Positions 27,339-37,843 of a stretch of 37,843 nt of DNA are shown here, in pieces. The DNA comes from a virus. A program made the translations under genes and the position numbers. Numbering within the stretch: position 1 is the stretch's first letter; every line of letters begins with the position of its first letter. The notes beneath the pieces are model-generated. The model saw nothing but the letters and a program-made list of their open reading frames with translations. It did no database searches and had not been told where the DNA came from. The DNA lies in the IMG/VR virus record IMGVR_UViG_3300048928_000659, positions 1 through 37,843 of that record, one strand, 5' to 3'.

Positions 27339-27615
27339 ACATAATATCTCCGAATTCGTTCACACCGTAAGGCTGAACGCAATCACGGGCGGCGACAAGC
27401 TGACGTCGGTGATTTTGGGCGATGGCTGTTTTGATCCGGCGTTGGACGAGGCGTTCTTCGAACTGAATGACGTTCGATGGTTCGGTGTCCACCACTGTTG
27501 CCAGGAGCGATTTCAAGCCCCGTAGGTAAGTGAGTGCTTCCTGGCGGTCGGCTTCGTCGGCGACATGCGGAAGGTGTGCCTCAAGTGCGTCGTGAATGGT
27601 GCAGAACAGTTTCAT
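27316..27615 (-). CDS. Hypothetical protein (99 aa)
   Basis: Helical, His/Arg-rich, no recognisable domain. Start at 27615 after AGGGAGAGACACG. Leader G upstream holds TCCGCCGGCGGA and an AGCCG/CGGCT hairpin. Confidence 0.65.
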   Translation of the reverse strand: MKLFCTIHDALEAHLPHVADEADRQEALTYLRGLKSLLATVVDTEPSNVIQFEERLVQRRIKTAIAQNHRRQLVAARDCVQPYGVNEFGDIMYAGDDID

Positions 27616-27674
27616 CGTGTCTCTCCCTGGAGCCGCAACACGGTCGGCTACAGAGATGATGTGTCCGCCGGCGG
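27616..27674 (-). promoter_or_regulatory. Leader G of the 99-aa gene
   Basis: TCCGCCGGCGGA (27663-27674) followed by ACATCATCTCTGT, an AGCCG/CGGCT hairpin flanked by CTCT and AGAG, the latter in the ribosome site GGGAGAG. Partial occlusion of the ribosome site is possible. Confidence 0.4.
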
Positions 27675-27686
27675 AAAGGTGCCAGC

Positions 27687-28568
27687 TCAGCCGCGGCGTC
27701 GCATGGGCGGCAAATCACGAAGAATCACGAGCGCTTCCTCGCCGTAATCTTCGTCTCCCGACGATCGAGGACGATCCCGCCAGTCCCGCCATCCGAATGC
27801 ATCGATCGCAGGCGCGACCAGGTCCTTTATTGCGTCGGTCGGCTCCGCGTTCGTCGGTCCTCGGAACTGCCGCAGAAAACCGTCGCGGATTTCGAGCGTC
27901 GCCTTGGGCTTTCCGTCGCGATCACGAACGGAAAAGAACCCAACGTCGGGATCGTCGAGCAACTCGTCATATGCCCCCTGGCCGACGCAATGATGCATCC
28001 GCAAGCCCTCCTTTCGGAGCGCAGCGCGTGAGAAAAGGCGAACGAGCGTATGTCCGGCACCAAGTTCGAAGGCGAAGCTTTCGTCTTCGGGTCCGAGAAC
28101 GATGTCCCGGATGTCCCGCTGCCTCAGCCCCTTAGTGGCTTCGAAGGCCAAGCGTTCAAGGGTGCCACACTTCATGAGTTTTTTGGGATGGCCGTCGAGT
28201 CCAACATTGGCGATCCACGGATGACCGTCGGAAACCGCCGTCAACAACCAGTCGCAGACGTGCCAGGCGTCGATGGAATGCCATTGCATCCATAGAGCAG
28301 CGCGGCGGCTCCACTTTCGGGACACATGACCGTCGCCGAACTCCGGCCATCCGTCGATGCGATGCCATTCAGGGTCTTCGTGATCGCCAGGCGTAGGCAT
28401 CCATTCCGGGTCCTTGGAATCTTGTCGGAGCCAATCGTTCCAAAAAACTCGAACCAAGGAGCAACCGACCAGATTGCGGATCGGAAGGAAGACCCGATCG
28501 GGAATGTCCAGTTCACCCACGAGGTGAAGGGCGGCTTCGCCATATTCTGGGTGATTGTATCTGCTCAT
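27687..28568 (-). CDS. PcfJ-like domain protein (293 aa)
   Basis: Residues 188-242 match the core of PcfJ-type proteins of plasmids and phages: LRMHHCVGQGAY, then FFSVRDRDGKPKATLEI and QFRGPTN. The Trp-rich N-terminal half is unassigned. The biochemical role of the family is unclear to me. Start at 28568 follows GGGAGACATCAAC in leader C, which can hide the ribosome site. Terminators and a leader isolate it as a single-gene unit. Confidence 0.65.
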   Translation of the reverse strand: MSRYNHPEYGEAALHLVGELDIPDRVFLPIRNLVGCSLVRVFWNDWLRQDSKDPEWMPTPGDHEDPEWHRIDGWPEFGDGHVSRKWSRRAALWMQWHSIDAWHVCDWLLTAVSDGHPWIANVGLDGHPKKLMKCGTLERLAFEATKGLRQRDIRDIVLGPEDESFAFELGAGHTLVRLFSRAALRKEGLRMHHCVGQGAYDELLDDPDVGFFSVRDRDGKPKATLEIRDGFLRQFRGPTNAEPTDAIKDLVAPAIDAFGWRDWRDRPRSSGDEDYGEEALVILRDLPPMRRRG

Positions 28569-28621
28569 GTTGATGTCTCCCTGTTCGGGAGAGCATGAGC
28601 CGTAGGCATGCAAGCAACAAA
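28569..28621 (-). promoter_or_regulatory. Leader C: CTTGCAT element and ribosome-site hairpin
   Basis: TTTGTTGCTTGCAT (complement of 28608-28621) directly after a terminator, then TCTCCC-GAACA-GGGAGA (28576-28592), a 6-bp hairpin with a 5-nt loop that covers the ribosome site of the PcfJ-like gene. Confidence 0.65.
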
Positions 28622-28646
28622 AAGGCGGCTCGGTGGCCGCCTTTTT
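28619..28646. terminator. Intrinsic terminator after the 142-aa gene
   Basis: AAAAAGGCGGC / GCCGCCTTTTT perfect stem with a short loop and T-runs both ways. Its last T-run merges into the CTTGCAT element of leader C. Confidence 0.9.
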
Positions 28647-28664
28647 GGGTCTGATTTCCGTGTC

Positions 28665-29093
28665 TCAGGCCGCCAGTTGGCTGCTCTCGGCACGAGCACG
28701 GAGAAGTGTCTGAAGTTCCAAGGTTTCTTTCTCAATGTCGTCGTCGCCGTAAGCCAAGGCCGCGGCGATATACTTCTCCAGCGCGGCGATCACGTCCCCG
28801 CCGTCTTCCCTGGTTTCTTCGAGATCGTTGTACGTGTCGATGTAGTTCTGAAGCAGCACATGGCGGTCGCCGTGCATCTTCATGAGCGTGCGCACCAATG
28901 TCACGTGGACTGCACTCGAAAAATCGTACCCTTTGCCAATCGACCAGATCATGACGATAGAGTCGAATACACGCTCGCACTGAGCTGCGGTGAGGTCGTT
29001 CGGCACGCAGGTGTTGTTGAGAATTTCGGTGGCCACTTCTTCGAAGATGAAGTCCGGATGTGTGAAGATATGTTGTGCTACTGCAAGTTCCAT
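28665..29093 (-). CDS. Hypothetical protein (142 aa)
   Basis: All-helical soluble protein, acidic, not recognised. Start at 29093; its GGGAGACATCTAA ribosome site is inside the longest leader hairpin of the set (10 bp). Single-gene unit ended by the terminator at 28619-28646. Confidence 0.65.
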   Translation of the reverse strand: MELAVAQHIFTHPDFIFEEVATEILNNTCVPNDLTAAQCERVFDSIVMIWSIGKGYDFSSAVHVTLVRTLMKMHGDRHVLLQNYIDTYNDLEETREDGGDVIAALEKYIAAALAYGDDDIEKETLELQTLLRARAESSQLAA

Positions 29094-29156
29094 TTAGATG
29101 TCTCCCTAGAGCTGTTTTCCTTTTGCTCTAGGGATATGCTGTGACCGCCGGCGGAA
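29094..29156 (-). promoter_or_regulatory. Leader D: 10-bp hairpin covering the ribosome site
   Basis: CCGCCGGCGG element (29145-29155), CACAGCAT, then TCCCTAGAGC / GCTCTAGGGA (29103-29112 with 29125-29134) around an A-rich 12-nt loop. The GGGA of the Shine-Dalgarno is in the stem. The stem sequence is unlike leaders A-C and E, so the structure rather than the sequence is kept. Confidence 0.7.
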
Positions 29157-29181
29157 TGACGCAACGGCGTTTCGCAAAAAA

Positions 29182-29523
29182 TCAGTCGTCGGGGCCAATA
29201 ATTCTGAACGGCCATTCGACGGAGACGCGCCCGGACATTGTTGTGACGGTCGGAAACAGCGGCGTCTCGACTGCCGAGAATGCCAAGACTTCTTCCAGCG
29301 TCAGACCTTTGCCCAGCTGCTCTGCGACGAAGGCCTCGATGGCGGCGTGCCGCTCCCTTAGAAGGCGCTCGACACGAAACCTAACGTCAGCATCCTCCCG
29401 GTTCTTCGGTGAGCGGACGGACAGAAGACCGTCCAGGTCGCGGATGTAGTCGACGTCGGAAACCGTTGTCTTGATTTCCTGCTCTACCGTTTTCGCAGGG
29501 GTGTTCCTCGGGGCCTTTGCCAT
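29182..29523 (-). CDS. Hypothetical protein (113 aa)
   Basis: Charged helical protein (MAKAPRNTPAK...), C-terminal VSVEWPFRI strand. Not recognised and not an AbiEi-type antitoxin as far as I can see. GGAG lies before the ATG, eight bases after the AbiEii-like stop, so the two form an operon. Confidence 0.6.
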   Translation of the reverse strand: MAKAPRNTPAKTVEQEIKTTVSDVDYIRDLDGLLSVRSPKNREDADVRFRVERLLRERHAAIEAFVAEQLGKGLTLEEVLAFSAVETPLFPTVTTMSGRVSVEWPFRIIGPDD

Positions 29524-29531
29524 GCTCGCTC

Positions 29532-30488
29532 CTAGAAAGGTCTGTATGCGGTCTCTTGCCGCTGCCTGGCGGCGATCCTGTCTACGAGAGTAGTCTCGCG
29601 CGTCGGCCGGCGGAAATCTTCGATGACGGCCCGGGTGAGAGCCTGGTGCGTTGCAGACCAATAGGCGTTGATGTCGATCCATGCCTGCGGCAGCGTCATC
29701 GCGAAACCGCGCTCGGCGCGCAATTTTTCCCAGGACGGCTCCCGGGGTTCCATCTTCGACCACGACAGCGCCGCCGGCGACGGCGCACAGACGCCGAGCG
29801 GGATGTTTCGGTGGCGGCATACACGCATGATCTCAAGAGCGACGCGGGCTATATCGATCTCCATGGCGTCGAAGCTGAGAAGGTCCGCAAGGTGTTTGAC
29901 GCGGTAATCCGTATCGGGTTGCTGAAGGACGGCGACCCACTTTTCGGCGGCGGCCGCTTCGATCGGCTGCACGTGGGCGACGATGCCGGGTTGTTTGCTG
30001 ATCATAGACGGCAGTTCCTGGCGTGTGACGTTCTGTGGGAACGCGAACGGTCCCCGGCCGACAGTCATGTCGATGTGAGTGTTGCCTCGGATCGTGCCGC
30101 ACATCGCCTCGATCTTGATGCGGACGACGGGATCGCCGTGACCGACATCGATTTCCTCGATCTTCAGGCGCTTGATCTCGATGCCTTCGTTGCCGAGGAT
30201 GGCGGCAATGCACTGCATACCTTGCCGAAGCTCCGCCTCAGTGTAGTGTCGGACGGCGACGATGTCGGCGTCCTCAGTCGGACGCATGCCCTGCGGGAAA
30301 AGCAAACCGCCTTTGACCATGATCGGCCCTGGGCCGAAGCCGACCGGCCAATGCGCTAGGATGCGCTCGGCAACGTAGCGCGACGCCGCCTTGTTTACGT
30401 CCAGTTTCTGGTTGCGGCAGTTCTGTTTGAGTCGGTCGCCGAGCGCGGCCGCTGTGGCTGTGGCTGTGAATGTCACGAAGTCTTGCAT
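29532..30488 (-). CDS. AbiEii-like nucleotidyltransferase (318 aa)
   Basis: Matches the AbiEii/type IV toxin nucleotidyltransferase layout: MVKGG (57-61), RPTEDAD (69-75; two metal-binding Asp), THIDMTVG, the AEKWVAVLQQ helix and YRVKHLADL near the usual R-x-KD-x-x-D site (His instead of Asp). AbiEii toxins block growth of infected cells, usually with AbiEi upstream; none is visible here. Start at 30488 follows GGGAGACATCGAC, sequestered by GTCTCC. It may be a defence toxin held in check at translation, or a domesticated enzyme. Confidence 0.7.
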   Translation of the reverse strand: MQDFVTFTATATAAALGDRLKQNCRNQKLDVNKAASRYVAERILAHWPVGFGPGPIMVKGGLLFPQGMRPTEDADIVAVRHYTEAELRQGMQCIAAILGNEGIEIKRLKIEEIDVGHGDPVVRIKIEAMCGTIRGNTHIDMTVGRGPFAFPQNVTRQELPSMISKQPGIVAHVQPIEAAAAEKWVAVLQQPDTDYRVKHLADLLSFDAMEIDIARVALEIMRVCRHRNIPLGVCAPSPAALSWSKMEPREPSWEKLRAERGFAMTLPQAWIDINAYWSATHQALTRAVIEDFRRPTRETTLVDRIAARQRQETAYRPF

Positions 30489-30541
30489 GTCGATGTCTCC
30501 CAGTGCGGAGACGGTCGCCTTCGGCGATGCAAGTGACAAAA
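30489..30541 (-). promoter_or_regulatory. Leader E: CTTGCAT element and ribosome-site hairpin
   Basis: TTTGTCACTTGCAT (complement of 30527-30540), then GTCTCC-GCACTG-GGAGAC (30495-30500 with 30507-30512) before CATCGACATG. A TCGCC/GGCGA hairpin lies between. Same plan as leader C. Confidence 0.65.
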
Positions 30542-32598: not shown

Positions 32599-33030
32599 TC
32601 AACGCGAGTTGCGTGCGACGTGCATGAGCTTCGGCTTGAGCTTTCCGGACCGCGCCCAAGTTTTGATCGTGAGGGGAGCGCCGACCTGGTCGTGGAACAC
32701 CTTCGACAGATAAGCGTCGATAGCGTCGGCACCAGGGCCGCCGGTCGCGAGGATCAACAACGCGGCGTCGGCCAGCGCTTCACGTGTCGAGTTCGCGTCG
32801 AACTTAATGCTCCCCGAAGACTCGCGTGCCTTTAGCTGCGCACGGCGTTCCGCCTGCTTCCGAGCCTTGTATTCGCGGTGTTCGGCGTCGGTCATGTCGG
32901 CAAGTCTAACTGAACTGCGCTTCACTGAGGATTTGATTGGGAGGGCAGGCTCGTCGCCCAGCAGCTCTTTCAGCAGACCCAGCTCGTCGTCGACGTGCGT
33001 TGCCAGTTCCTCGATCTCGGTGTTCGTCAT
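32599..33030 (-). CDS. Hypothetical protein of the replication region (143 aa)
   Basis: Acidic N-terminus, basic centre (KARKQAERRAQLKAR), and a C-terminal helix-rich part (DAYLSKVFHDQV...). Start at 33030; a TTCTACATGTAGAA palindrome lies 12 bases upstream, so it may bind it and repress itself. A partition or copy-control role is a guess from position. Confidence 0.55.
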   Translation of the reverse strand: MTNTEIEELATHVDDELGLLKELLGDEPALPIKSSVKRSSVRLADMTDAEHREYKARKQAERRAQLKARESSGSIKFDANSTREALADAALLILATGGPGADAIDAYLSKVFHDQVGAPLTIKTWARSGKLKPKLMHVARNSR

Positions 33031-33041
33031 TTCACATTCCG

Positions 33042-33152
33042 TTCTACATGTAGAAACATGTGTCCGCTTTCTACATAGAAGTCTGCCTGTCGGCCAAACC
33101 AAGCACCACTCATTTCTACATGTAGAACATGATTATTTTTCTACATGTAGAA
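33042..33152. promoter_or_regulatory. Cluster of TTCTACATGTAGAA palindromes
   Basis: Three perfect 14-bp palindromes (33042-33055, 33114-33127, 33139-33152) and one shorter variant (TTCTACATAGAA, 33069-33080). Spacing 25 between the last two. Likely operators or partition sites between the divergent 143-aa and rep genes. Confidence 0.75.
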
Positions 33153-33647
33153 CGCGATCTAAAAAGGGGCTGGCGCACTAGAAGGCTCCGCCGCTCCGCC
33201 CGAAATGGACAACCGGCTCCAGGGAAAATAGGAATCTTGAAACCCTTTGATTGGACAACCGAACCCCACAAAACGAGACTGCTATCCAAACTGCTCCGCG
33301 CATCTGATGACACGGACGCCTCCCGCTTGCGCCAAGCTTCGCCGACGGGCAGACTTACAAAAGACGAGCGAAGCGACCCGTTTCTTAAAACGGCGAAGCC
33401 CATAGAAACCCGATGATTAAAATCATGAACCCGGTTTCAATATTCGCTATCGACGGCTTCCAGTAAACATACATCAGCGCCCAAGGAATGCAGGGTACAG
33501 TTGACTGACAATATACCACCCATCTCACTTGCCGAAGAATCGTGACAGGGCCGATAAAATCATAGCAATAGTAAAAAATCGACGTTGATAGTCTTGTGCC
33601 AGGCTCCGCCGACACGCACACTTATGACTGTAAGGGAGACATACGTC
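33153..33647 (+). other. Gene-poor, AT-richer region upstream of rep: candidate origin
   Basis: About 500 bases with no convincing gene. Contains a CCGTTT/AAACGG hairpin, a nested GAAACC/GGTTTC plus ATGATT/AATCAT hairpin (33405-33438), TTGACT near 33499 and AT-rich runs (33540-33580). Two related 28-base repeats (33331, 33598). Expected place for a replication origin and rep control. Confidence 0.45.
33331..33625 (+). repeat. Two related 28-base direct repeats flanking the rep promoter region
   Basis: 33331-33358 and 33598-33625 match at 22 of 28 positions (GCCArGCTyCGCCGAC...). They could be iteron-like Rep sites or remnants of a duplication. Confidence 0.4.
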
Positions 33648-35093
33648 GTGCATCAGCCAGCTAATACATCGCTCGAAGAAATGGAAATCGCATCGAAGCG
33701 CAAGCCTCGTCGACACAAGATGCACGGCAAGCGGGGATCGGTGTTCGTCCACGAGCGTGAAGATGGTTCCGAGAAAGGTTACGTTTGGAAGACTACGGGT
33801 GACGATATCATCCGGGGATATCAGCGCGGCGGTCTCAAGTGCGGCAATCTCTCGGCGGAAGCGGTCTATACGAACGAATCCTCGTCGCCGCGGGTCGAAA
33901 TTCCCCGTGTCGTCATCGAAACAATGTCTGTTGAATCAAAGCAGTTGCATGCGGGAGACATCGCGGTGTTCTGGCGGATGTTCGCCGAAGCCCGCAAGCA
34001 AGGCATCTCACGCGACGCGCATACGATCAAGTTGAGCGACGTCATCAGATACCTGGGACTCAACAGCCTTCATCGTGCGAAGCAAGCTATCACGCGCCTA
34101 GCTGGCGCGGCGATGACGCTTCGGCTCAACCAGCCAGGCGCGCGTGGCACGATCCGAATGCCAATGATTGAACTCCTGCACGACACCGACGACTTCGCGG
34201 CACTCCGCGGCTACAACGAAGTGTTTTTCCGTCTGCCTTCGGCCCTCAAGCTGGCCGTAAAGGAGAGCCGAGACTACGCCTGGGTGGACCTCAACGCGCT
34301 GTCCCGGTTCGAATCCAAGTTCACGTTCCCTCTCTATCTCAAGCTCTGCCTGGAAGCGGGCAAACATCGCTTGTATCGCTCCGTGCCGGAGATGACGAAG
34401 TCTGAATTCCGGGCTTTCGTCGGAATGCCCGAGAAGACCCAGACGTCGGTGCTCGACAAGACACTGCAACTCGTCTGCAACGATCTGTCTTCGATCTCCG
34501 GCGTCCGCCGCCGTTTCCCGATTTCCATCGCGTTCGAGGAAGGGAAGCTCCAGATCGTCGTTGGAAGCGCCGCGAAGAAGCTCCGTGATGTGAAGCCCGC
34601 GTGGATCGCGCCGGAGATGGCTGCAAAGCAGACCGAAGAGGTCTACGCGATGCCTGCGGAAAAGCGAAAGCTCTACCCGTCATTGACGCGGTTCCGACAG
34701 GCGGAGACTGCCATCGGAGCGCCTGCGTATCGGATTTTTGGTCTGTGGTCAGCCGACATTCACGGCGCGACGTCTTACCCCGACGACTATATCGTCGGTA
34801 TGACCGGCCGCGACTTCATGAACCTGATCGCGAAGGTCGGTGCGGACGATGTCATGGAGTTCTGGCTCGACAAGCGAGACTTCGAAGTCCTTGGAGCTGC
34901 TGGAAAATGGATGGATGTCGAGGTCGTAGAGCACACCCCGGTCGTGAATATCCCGATCGCCGCATCCAGGCCAAAGGCACCCAAGGTCGCCCTCGACGAG
35001 ATAGTGAGTCGGGCAAGAGCGCGCTACGATGATGAGCGTCTGCCCGAACCCGCTGTATTTGCCTACGTGGACGACGAGGACATTCCGTTCTGA
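33648..35093 (+). CDS. Plasmid-type replication initiator (winged-helix Rep, 481 aa)
   Basis: The central part (about 100-290) has the double winged-helix pattern of theta-plasmid Rep proteins: DIAVFWRMFAEARKQ...IKLSDVIRYLGL, FPLYLKLCLEAGKH and EFRAFVGMPE. Basic N-terminus. Start taken as GTG at 33648: GGGAGACATACGTC precedes it with the spacing used by the phage leaders, while upstream ATGs lack a site. Role: origin opening and plasmid-state maintenance. Exact Rep family not certain. Confidence 0.75.
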   Translation: MHQPANTSLEEMEIASKRKPRRHKMHGKRGSVFVHEREDGSEKGYVWKTTGDDIIRGYQRGGLKCGNLSAEAVYTNESSSPRVEIPRVVIETMSVESKQLHAGDIAVFWRMFAEARKQGISRDAHTIKLSDVIRYLGLNSLHRAKQAITRLAGAAMTLRLNQPGARGTIRMPMIELLHDTDDFAALRGYNEVFFRLPSALKLAVKESRDYAWVDLNALSRFESKFTFPLYLKLCLEAGKHRLYRSVPEMTKSEFRAFVGMPEKTQTSVLDKTLQLVCNDLSSISGVRRRFPISIAFEEGKLQIVVGSAAKKLRDVKPAWIAPEMAAKQTEEVYAMPAEKRKLYPSLTRFRQAETAIGAPAYRIFGLWSADIHGATSYPDDYIVGMTGRDFMNLIAKVGADDVMEFWLDKRDFEVLGAAGKWMDVEVVEHTPVVNIPIAASRPKAPKVALDEIVSRARARYDDERLPEPAVFAYVDDEDIPF

Positions 35094-35293: not shown

Positions 35294-37150
35294 ATGGCCA
35301 CCGAGCAGCTGTCACTCGAGCGTCGCATCGCCGACCTTCATCTTGCCCGTTATCTTCGCCCATTCGCGCGTGCCAAGGCATGCTTCTTGGTTGTGGCGCT
35401 ACCATCTGACGTCGACAGCCTCGCCTGGAAGGACGCTGCTGTTCGGTGGTCAGGCCGTGGAGAAGAGGACGAGTGGCGCTACAAGGACCCCGCGGTGGTC
35501 GCCACTGTCGATCAGCTCGACGACCTCAAGCTGGCGCGCGGCCGCATCGTTATCCTCGTTGAACATGGCGACCGTGATGAACTCCTGGCGCATCCGACGG
35601 CATCCGCTGCGGACGCGGTGATCGGAATCGACTCCCTCGATCCTGTCCTCGTGCAGAAGGCTTTCCGCGACACGACCGGTGGCGACATTTCGCTTCCGGA
35701 TGCGACCACCCTCGCGGCCTTACCTGCCCCCCGTCGCCGTTCGCTCTCATTCGCCGGCCGTCCGATTTCGGCGGTTGTCGCTCGCCTTGCAGCTGCGCAG
35801 GCGAAAGAAGACCTCAATTCGACGGCGAAGCTTTCAAAGAAGACGTCGGCGACGCGCCTCGAAGAACTCCACGGCTATGGGGATGCCAAGTCTTGGGGAC
35901 TGGAACTTGCGCAGGACATCGCTGACTATCGCGCTGGTTTGATCGACTGGTCGGACGTAGACGGCGGCCTGCTGCTCTCTGGTCCTCCTGGTGTCGGAAA
36001 GACCCGCTTCGCCGCCGCGCTGGCCGAGACCTGCGGTGTACCTCTCATGTCAACCTCATATGCAAAATGGCAGGCGCGTGGTCATCAGGGCGACGCGCTC
36101 AAAGGCATGCAGATCACGTTCGACGCCGCACGTCGCGCAGCGCCTTGCATCGTGTTCCTGGACGAAGTCGACTCGTTCTCGTCTCGCGACGACGACAAGG
36201 CGACAGAATACATGCGCGGCATCGTCAATGGCCTGCTTGAAGCTATGGACGGCTCAGAGGGGTGCGAAGGCATCGTCGTCATCGGCGCATGCAACGACCC
36301 TGAAGTCGTTGACCACGCGATCCGCCGTTCGGGCCGCCTTGATCGCCACATTGCCCTAAAACTCCCTGACGCTGGCGCTCGCCTGGCTATCCTGCGTGAG
36401 TACCTCGGCGTCGATCTCGACCTCTCCACGTATCTCCGTCGCACTGAAGGCATGTCGGGTGCTGACCTGGAACGCGCAGCGCGCGACGCCCGTCGTCTGG
36501 CGCGCCGCCATCGCACTGAAATCTCGCATGACCACATCATCGCGGCGCTTCCCAAACGTGCTTCGCGTCCGGCCGAATACCTCCGCATGGTCGCGCGCCA
36601 TGAGATCGGGCATGCCGTTGTCGGTGCTGTGCTCGGCGGACGCCTGCTGCATGTCTATTTGCAGAAGGAGTACGATCCCGATTCTACGGCCGATGTAGCC
36701 GGTGCGGCTGTGTTCCGTATCGAAAAACACGAGCATCGCACTGCGTCAAAATACAGCGATTTGATCTGTACCAAGCTCGCAGGCATGGCGGCTGAGCTGA
36801 TCTACTATGGCAACCATGGCGACGTCTGTGTTGCCGATCTTGTTGAAGCGTCGGCGACCGCGACGTGCATGCTGTCCAGCCTTGGTATGGGCGACAACCT
36901 GTCATCAACCGGCCATCGCGAACCTGAGACGCTGGCTCAGGAGCGCCTAATGAACCCGGCACTCGCCCGCGACGTCGAAACGCTGCTGCAGGAGCAGGCT
37001 GCGCGCGCTCGCGAAATCCTCGAAATGCACCGCGACGCCGTAGACGAACTCGTCGAGCTTTTGATCCTGCGCGGTCGCTTGATGGGGCCGGAAGTTCGCG
37101 ACACGATCCGTTCTTACGAGGCAGGCCCGAGCCTGCCGAAGGCGGTGTGA
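35294..37150 (+). CDS. Soluble FtsH-like AAA+/M41 protease (618 aa)
   Basis: Walker A GPPGVGKT (about 230-237), Walker B IVFLDEVDSF, sensor/arginine-finger region RRSGRLDRH, then the M41 zinc motif HEIGH (436-440) with the later GMAAELIYYG...ADLVEAS region supplying the third ligand. Unlike cellular FtsH, the 190-residue N-terminus has no membrane helix. AGGAG lies eight bases before the ATG. Unfolds and degrades proteins using ATP and zinc; targets unknown. First gene of an operon with a phosphoesterase (2-base gap). Confidence 0.85.
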   Translation: MATEQLSLERRIADLHLARYLRPFARAKACFLVVALPSDVDSLAWKDAAVRWSGRGEEDEWRYKDPAVVATVDQLDDLKLARGRIVILVEHGDRDELLAHPTASAADAVIGIDSLDPVLVQKAFRDTTGGDISLPDATTLAALPAPRRRSLSFAGRPISAVVARLAAAQAKEDLNSTAKLSKKTSATRLEELHGYGDAKSWGLELAQDIADYRAGLIDWSDVDGGLLLSGPPGVGKTRFAAALAETCGVPLMSTSYAKWQARGHQGDALKGMQITFDAARRAAPCIVFLDEVDSFSSRDDDKATEYMRGIVNGLLEAMDGSEGCEGIVVIGACNDPEVVDHAIRRSGRLDRHIALKLPDAGARLAILREYLGVDLDLSTYLRRTEGMSGADLERAARDARRLARRHRTEISHDHIIAALPKRASRPAEYLRMVARHEIGHAVVGAVLGGRLLHVYLQKEYDPDSTADVAGAAVFRIEKHEHRTASKYSDLICTKLAGMAAELIYYGNHGDVCVADLVEASATATCMLSSLGMGDNLSSTGHREPETLAQERLMNPALARDVETLLQEQAARAREILEMHRDAVDELVELLILRGRLMGPEVRDTIRSYEAGPSLPKAV

Positions 37151-37152
37151 TC

Positions 37153-37713
37153 ATGACCTTCGTCAAAAAATTCTACATCTCCGACACCCACTTCCTTCAC
37201 GAGCGTCTGCTGGGCATGCAGCCGCGTGCTTTCGCTTCGATCGACGAACACGACGACGCGATCGTCGAGCGCTGGAATGGGGTCGTTGGCGACGAGGACA
37301 TCGTATATCACCTTGGGGACTTCGCATTCTCGCTCAAGCAGAATGCGGATCGTGTCCGGGCGATCTTCAACCGACTGAATGGCCGAAAGCACCTGGTTAT
37401 CGGGAATCACGACGTCGATAAGAGGGGTAATCTGCATTCGGCGTTGGCATCGCTCGACTGGGCTGCTCGCCCGGAACACGCGATGCGAACCCGCGATGGC
37501 GGTCACGACGTCTGGCTGGCTCACTATGCCGCTCGGACGTGGCCGTGTAGCGGTTACGGCAGCATCCACTTTTTCGGGCATTCCCACGGCAAGCTTCCCG
37601 GCTACGGCCGCTCGCGCGATGTCGGCGTCGACATGCCGGATGTCGCCTTCACGCCCCGTACTTTTGGGGAACTGACCAAGGATATGGAGCTGAACGATGC
37701 GTTTGGAAAATGA
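37153..37713 (+). CDS. Small metallophosphoesterase (186 aa)
   Basis: Calcineurin-like phosphoesterase motifs in order: ISDTHFLH (D-x-H), YHLGDF (GD), VIGNHD (GNHD), WLAHY and FGHSHG (GHxH). Full-length, single domain, similar in size to small phage phosphodiesterases. Likely hydrolyses a nucleotide or phosphodiester; substrate not predictable. Start at 37153 (ATG) two bases after the protease stop; a GTG at 37147 would overlap. Confidence 0.85.
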   Translation: MTFVKKFYISDTHFLHERLLGMQPRAFASIDEHDDAIVERWNGVVGDEDIVYHLGDFAFSLKQNADRVRAIFNRLNGRKHLVIGNHDVDKRGNLHSALASLDWAARPEHAMRTRDGGHDVWLAHYAARTWPCSGYGSIHFFGHSHGKLPGYGRSRDVGVDMPDVAFTPRTFGELTKDMELNDAFGK

Positions 37714-37843
37714 TATCGCGATCGGTCGAGAGGTCCGCGACATCCTGTCGGACAGCGTCGCACCTGGCGTCGGCGATGGCTGGTACCACCTCGTCGGCAA
37801 GGCGCTGTGCAACGTATTCAGGAGGCTCGATTTTGTCCGATGA
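37697..37843 (+). CDS. Small hypothetical protein (48 aa)
   Basis: Starts inside the end of the phosphoesterase gene with GGAG seven bases upstream and ends at the last base of the window. Begins MRLENDIAIGREVRD. Not recognised. On a circle it would be followed directly by the 53-aa gene at position 1. Confidence 0.6.
   Translation: MRLENDIAIGREVRDILSDSVAPGVGDGWYHLVGKALCNVFRRLDFVR

Follow-up and report, generated by a model that had tools for sequence, protein, structure and literature searches.

The M41 proteases of bacteria are known chiefly as quality-control enzymes bound to the membrane. Among them, FtsH carries N-terminal transmembrane helices and an aromatic pore loop (FVG), and the third metal ligand of M41 peptidases is an aspartate. 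Calcineurin-like metallophosphoesterases (MPEs) have five metal-site motifs, and the anti-phage system IetAS combines an AAA ATPase with an S8 protease. In phages, gp48 of mycobacteriophage A10ZJ24 is reported to be an MPE with phosphodiesterase activity that counters host defence (PMC12287305). Phage-plasmids are reported to exchange defence genes (PMC10879196). The Rhizobium phage-plasmid-like siphophages B1VFA and V1VFA-S, of 118–122 kb, carry repC/parA/parB (PMC12509600). No description of a protease-MPE pair like the one analysed here was found by full-text searches of a library that covers few subscription journals.

In this study, we analysed a DNA stretch of 37,843 bases (the window), which is a complete virus record. 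Genes for terminase, portal, capsid, tail and endolysin lie on its minus strand, and its right end holds on the plus strand, in this order, rep, a protease gene, an MPE gene and a 48-aa ORF running to the last base. The window resembles B1VFA and V1VFA-S in being a rhizobial phage with plasmid-type replication genes, but a protease-MPE pair was not reported in those phages (PMC12509600). Phage structural genes together with a predicted plasmid-type Rep, the combination that serves as the criterion for a phage-plasmid, are both present in the window. No integrase match was found across the record, which is possibly a fragment. Since 11 of the 22 records of this virus group have an integrase-like match (5/12 in the first set and 6/10 in the second), the plasmid state of the group is unproven. 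Our best reading is that the protease and MPE genes, which overlap, would make up an exchangeable cassette of two genes on the rep side of temperate Rhizobiales viruses. The features of the region are as follows.

32599..33030, minus strand: 143-aa gene, divergent from rep (the longest ORF extends to 33102)
33041..33158, no strand: three near-perfect palindromes of the TTCTACATGTAGAA type, in the space separating rep from the divergent 143-aa gene
33585..35093, plus strand: Rep_3-like replication initiator, 502 aa, an interchangeable neighbour (hhalign to a Rep_3-positive set)
35294..37150, plus strand: AAA+/M41 metalloprotease, 618 aa, predicted cytosolic (ORF; Pfam AAA and Peptidase_M41 above cut-offs)
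35294..35851, plus strand: N-terminal domain of the protease, aa 1–186 (38-row alignment; model pLDDT 89)
35963..36556, plus strand: AAA+ module, predicted to be active, aa 224–421 (Walker A GPPGVGKT, Walker B, sensor 1, two SRH arginines)
36584..37096, plus strand: M41 peptidase domain, aa 431–601 (Pfam M41; HEIGH at 36599–36613; D515)
37147..37713, plus strand: calcineurin-like MPE, 188 aa (PHROG 547; overlaps the protease stop by 4 nt)
37697..37843, plus strand: 48-aa ORF (both ends match a frame starting at 10695 in the relative L100)

The protease, the phosphoesterase and the neighbouring Rep

The protease matched Pfam AAA with 106.9 bits (E 1.3e-30; cut-off 21.2) and Peptidase_M41 (PF01434) with 51.8 bits (E 1.2e-13; cut-off 29.9), and its ATG is closely preceded by AGGAG. 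The AAA+ residues K236, D290, E291, N334, R345 and R348 were invariant in all 45 aligned rows. H436, E437 and H440 of the M41 domain were likewise present in 45/45 rows, and D515 was found in 44, the last row having a gap. A score above the cut-off, the HExxH motif and D515 place the protein, by its sequence, in peptidase family M41. The highest 19-residue Kyte-Doolittle mean was 1.38, indicating no membrane helix. Within the first 220 residues, the mean stayed at or below 1.9 in 96 of the 98 rows counted as in-family, and many diverged FtsH-type rows reached 2.0–2.9 (L099 2.88, L114 2.54). The initial annotation, which proposed a full AAA+/M41 protease lacking membrane helices, was therefore borne out by the Pfam matches, the intact catalytic residues and this low hydropathy maximum.

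The predicted structure of the protease (pLDDT 90) gave FtsH as the top PDB matches (3kds, 2ce7). The window protease shares with FtsH the AAA+ module and the M41 domain, including HExxH and the SRH arginines, but it lacks transmembrane segments and has a probable degenerate AAA+ N-domain. It scored 166.8 bits against the FtsH equivalog TIGR01241, below the cut-off of 600. At pore-loop position 264, the 45 rows had H in 35, Y in 5, A in 4 and S in 1, so most rows read H(L/Q)G where FtsH has FVG. A scan of viral contigs with the single protein returned no relative, and a query with the family alignment found 33.

The N-terminus had been described as a unique 190-residue segment possibly selecting targets; instead, it aligned with 37 relatives, which indicates a family-wide domain. 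The structure prediction proposed for it was carried out, and it gave a model with a probable degenerate AAA+ fold and weak matches. In the PDB, the best Foldseek hit had an E-value of 8e-3 (bcs1 AAA), the VIA comparison reached Z 7.8 (MuB AAA), and almost all the weak matches were AAA+ domains. Walker motifs were absent from its sequence by eye. We tentatively propose that the model represents a degenerate AAA+ domain, at the position that the membrane anchor occupies in FtsH; the call is tentative because the VIA Z score is under 8.

The MPE starts with a GTG at 37147 inside the protease stop (an alternative ATG lies at 37153), in agreement with the annotated complete small phosphoesterase directly after the protease. 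It matched the PHROG 547 phosphoesterase with E 4e-43 and PDB 1xm7 (Aquifex aq_1665) with E 2.9e-12, and it scored 20.1 bits against Pfam Metallophos_2, below the cut-off of 27. The motifs DTH (DxH), GD, GNHD, H and GHSH were invariant in nine aligned rows, and with these five metal-site motifs the protein has the predicted metal site of a calcineurin-like enzyme. The window MPE thus resembles the PHROG 547 phosphoesterases and aq_1665 in sequence family and metal motifs, but, unlike them, it is linked with a protease and with viruses that carry Rep; it matched 1,612 phage records, all at less than 60% identity. Gp48 is likewise a phage MPE, and the available part of its report mentions no protease linked to it (PMC12287305).

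The AAA part of the protease also matched the PADLOC model IetA (83.8 bits, E 3.8e-24), and PADLOC gave no model for the window protease beyond such AAA-part matches. As in IetAS, an AAA ATPase works with a protease. In the window, however, the protease is fused to it and of the M41 type, and the partner is an MPE instead of an S8 protein. IetAS membership was rejected, as only the AAA part matched and the neighbours are Rep and MPE, with no S8 peptidase.

The gene upstream of the protease had no Rep Pfam match at the family cut-off (22.4 bits for Rep3_N). Among 12 records with related Reps, seven had Rep3_N matches (the window none) and five of these were above the cut-off. The alignment of the window Rep with four relatives matched a second Rep set, which includes members above the Rep3_N cut-off, at 99.7% probability (hhalign, E 3.2e-27, 336 columns), and on this alignment the label "rep" is sound as homology; the operon does stand next to rep, as had been noted. 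A single-protein scan with the window Rep found no relative, and the Rep alignment query returned only two contigs, both already collected.

Co-inheritance of the pair and exchange of Rep

The initial annotation also called for a co-occurrence search of the two genes, and the pair proved to be conserved elsewhere. We collected 131 loci with the protease or its diverged cousins. An MPE was present within 1.3 kb in 37 of the 98 in-family loci, where family membership was cut at 330 bits, a value fixed only once the score table, with the MPEs marked in it, had been seen (without the cut, 37/131). It was on the same strand in 37/37. The other 61 in-family loci had no such MPE in that range, nor did any of the 33 diverged loci, and 19 stretches of 13.3 kb taken at random from these genomes contained none. 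The pairing counts are of records and not events, with many near relatives and some near-identical ones (e.g., L106/L110 and L043/L082). The paired MPEs belong to two families, a small one of the window type (11 loci) and a long one, and both occur downstream as well as upstream of the protease (upstream: small in L105, L106 and L110; long in L104, L107, L045 and L059). In five loci (L007, L008, L030, L034 and L073), a gene of ~325 aa overlaps the protease stop and sits between the protease and the long MPE; its L008 copy matched no Pfam family.

Rep stands beside the protease and MPE in one family of viruses of Rhizobiales, and likewise in two Shinella plasmids. A Rep of the two sets studied was found in the flanks of 11 of the 98 in-family protease loci and was missing from 87. 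The protease tree requires 14 changes for the presence of the MPE and two for the link to Rep. A reading with two separate origins of that link was dropped, as a single origin was not rejected by the AU test (p-AU 0.238).

Searching from the MPE, we obtained 33 viral loci, of which 17 were close (51–80% identity) and 16 distant. All 17 close loci have Rep upstream and nine have the protease; seven of them were already in the collection, and the ten new ones gave 10/10 for Rep and 2/10 for the protease. The distant loci had neither gene. Of the eight close records with Rep and without the protease nearby, none had a protease anywhere on the record. A scan starting from Rep gave 7/7 loci with both protease and MPE, but six of the seven were seeds and the scan was unused as evidence. 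In L176, where Rep shares 39% identity with the window Rep, the MPE frame begins ~70 bases after Rep, with no protease. This arrangement suggests that the protease is an optional insertion in a region made up of Rep and MPE.

Across the 11 three-gene elements, the identities of protease and MPE were correlated with r = 0.96 (Mantel p 2e-4), and those of protease and Rep with r = 0.20 (p 0.075). Among the window, L100 and L101, the proteases are 67–72% and the MPEs 76–80% identical, and the Reps, of three different types, only 17–22%. L021 and L103 share 88% of the protease, 100% of the MPE and 18% of the Rep. Near-identical protease-MPE pairs thus carry Reps of just 15–25% identity, and within a single Rep clade some members have the protease and others lack it, which requires five changes on the Rep tree. 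As judged from these identities, the co-inherited unit is the protease with the MPE, and Rep is exchanged beside the pair. Gene order next to rep can therefore mislead, and identity covariation distinguishes the co-inherited MPE from the neighbouring Rep.

Genomic surroundings of relatives and possible role

Most relatives of the protease lie on chromosomes or megaplasmids, often with many defence genes around them. In 136 ORFs flanking 20 loci away from Rep, 139 PADLOC models matched at E<=1e-15, compared with five models in the 109 ORFs of 13 random stretches at the same threshold (49,077 vs 47,097 residues; the control comprised 13 of the 19 stretches and 109 of their 162 ORFs), the model counts being redundant per ORF. 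When matches were resolved singly in 20 of the 136 target ORFs, 4/10 (L041 partly) and 3/10 were matched. Named systems could be placed in six loci, namely a DISARM-like DrmD (L034), Dsr1 (L039), PDC-S06 (L028), PDC-S26 (L025), a TIR/Pycsar effector (L040) and a type II methyltransferase (L044). According to the depositors' annotation, plasmid relatives are located near KwaB-like genes, genes for an S8 peptidase with an ATP-binding protein, a CBASS locus and a TIR gene.

Genes like TnsA, TnsB or TniB, as in Tn7-like transposition, were found in the fetched flanks of 15/98 in-family loci. A conserved gene of ~204 aa lies upstream of the protease in 25 loci outside the Rep group (L005, L020–L044 and others), at a distance of 806 bases in L082. 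It matched one Bosea TnsA-domain protein by hhalign (51%, E 1.5e-4), it had no Pfam match, and the usual catalytic Lys was absent by eye. TnsA proper was dropped as an identification, given an hhalign probability of only 51% and no Pfam match.

Small MPEs without the protease occur on conjugative plasmids of Agrobacterium and Rhizobium. Four of these loci (L135–L137 and L139) have a run of MPE, in some cases a hypothetical gene, and thermonuclease beside genes for an ArdC-like protein or a zincin, a Y-family polymerase and ligD.

The reading we favour, still tentatively, is that of an accessory cassette serving in conflicts of mobile elements with the cell, leaning to defence. The catalytic residues are invariant, the protease is predicted to be soluble, the two genes are co-inherited, and pairs recur elsewhere in Alphaproteobacteria, all of which support such a cassette. 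The protease would be a free cytosolic hexamer. Its probably degenerate N-domain would build an initial ring taking in the targets, so that a D1-D2 arrangement like that of p97 is joined to M41; the targets may then be unfolded and degraded. The MPE might hydrolyse a nucleotide signal or nucleic acid within the same response. The cassette could defend a lysogen against other phages, or remove host defence proteins and signals. For the protease, defence is the role we prefer, since those of its relatives that are not near Rep are often found within defence islands, a location that can also reflect mere riding in mobile islands. On the other hand, the MPE can probably work without the protease, since close MPEs lack it in 8 of the 17 loci beside Rep and on conjugative plasmids.

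A second role within the same conflict would be counter-defence, in which the cassette would shield the incoming phage genome, the protease destroying host defence proteins and the MPE removing nucleotide signals or acting on DNA. It agrees with the protease-less MPE relatives beside ArdC-like or zincin genes on conjugative plasmids and with the activity reported for gp48 (PMC12287305), and the rep-side position would suggest early expression. However, the window MPE is below 60% identity to every phage match, and the idea makes less sense for protease relatives that are mostly chromosomal or megaplasmid-borne and often in defence-rich surroundings; we regard it as rather unlikely. The pair could also be ordinary cargo, a protease for quality-control or stress proteolysis with an unrelated phage phosphoesterase adjoining it. 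The 22 genomes searched, which were selected for holding a protease homolog, contain 1–5 homologs each, and MPEs are common in phages, as the large number of matching records indicates. Chance adjacency nevertheless fits poorly with the overlap of the two genes, their tight co-inheritance, the recurrence of two MPE families in both gene orders and the lack of any MPE in the random stretches, and we judge this account unlikely.

Control of Rep was the role first proposed for the locus, with the protease degrading Rep or a repressor and thereby setting copy number or the switch between plasmid and lytic states. Of the 99 in-family rows in the tree, 12 have Rep upstream, divided over two groups, and a single origin of this link is compatible with the tree. 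FtsH reportedly degrades lambda CII, which is a known precedent. Nevertheless, a Rep-specific protease is disfavoured because the protease and MPE are co-inherited while Rep is swapped beside them, and most in-family loci have no such Rep in their flanks. Same-clade Reps also occur with and without the protease, the eight protease-less Rep-MPE records contain no copy of it at any position, the MPE is left unexplained, and the plasmid state is unproven. A target feature common to all Reps would be compatible with the co-inheritance data; as a whole, we consider control of Rep improbable.

Returning to the conflict cassette, a more specific and doubtful proposal is immunity of Alphaproteobacteria against mobile elements, in which a cytosolic tandem-AAA+ M41 protease would act with one of at least two MPE families. 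The MPE would make or remove a licensing signal, viruses and megaplasmids would carry the cassette in portable form, and the TnsA-like 204-aa protein would replace or add to the MPE in many chromosomal forms. The M41 branch described here, large, alphaproteobacterial and predicted to be cytosolic, probably carries a degenerate AAA+ domain instead of the membrane anchor. Together with its coupling to phosphoesterases and its occurrence in viruses and defence islands, this would represent a different way of using such proteases, and the branch provides a list of candidate protease-phosphoesterase conflict loci.

Right end and remaining parts of the record

The operon is truncated, since the window is the whole virus record and ends there. 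A tiny gene had been annotated at this end; its ORF exists, but it appears to be an internally deleted remnant. In the nearest relative, L100, a frame of ~207 aa begins with ~37 residues and ends with ~8 residues that the 48-aa ORF has kept, a pattern that looks like the result of an in-frame internal deletion. L100, L101 and L176 have a gene of ~97 aa behind the MPE that is absent from the window. The gene following it starts at 10695 in L100 and corresponds to frame 10402 in L101, and its window counterpart has only 48 codons.

The TTCTACATGTAGAA palindromes are putatively operator- or centromere-like. The divergent 143-aa gene matched no Pfam family above the cut-off, and tblastn placed its relatives beside Rep in L100, L002, L102, L107 and L003. 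Promoter and terminator scans gave matches at chance level, a tRNA scan of the window found none, and megablast of the right 20 kb of the window against phages gave no match.

Positions 27432–29664 of the window are 98.3% identical in DNA to positions 1–2233 of L100, over 2.2 kb, and the proteases of the two viruses are only 70% identical. Because of this difference, we interpret the shared segment as a recent mosaic exchange between both viruses. An AbiEii-like nucleotidyltransferase gene at 29532–30539 on the minus strand (PADLOC E 3.8e-25) is conserved in L100–L103 and L002.
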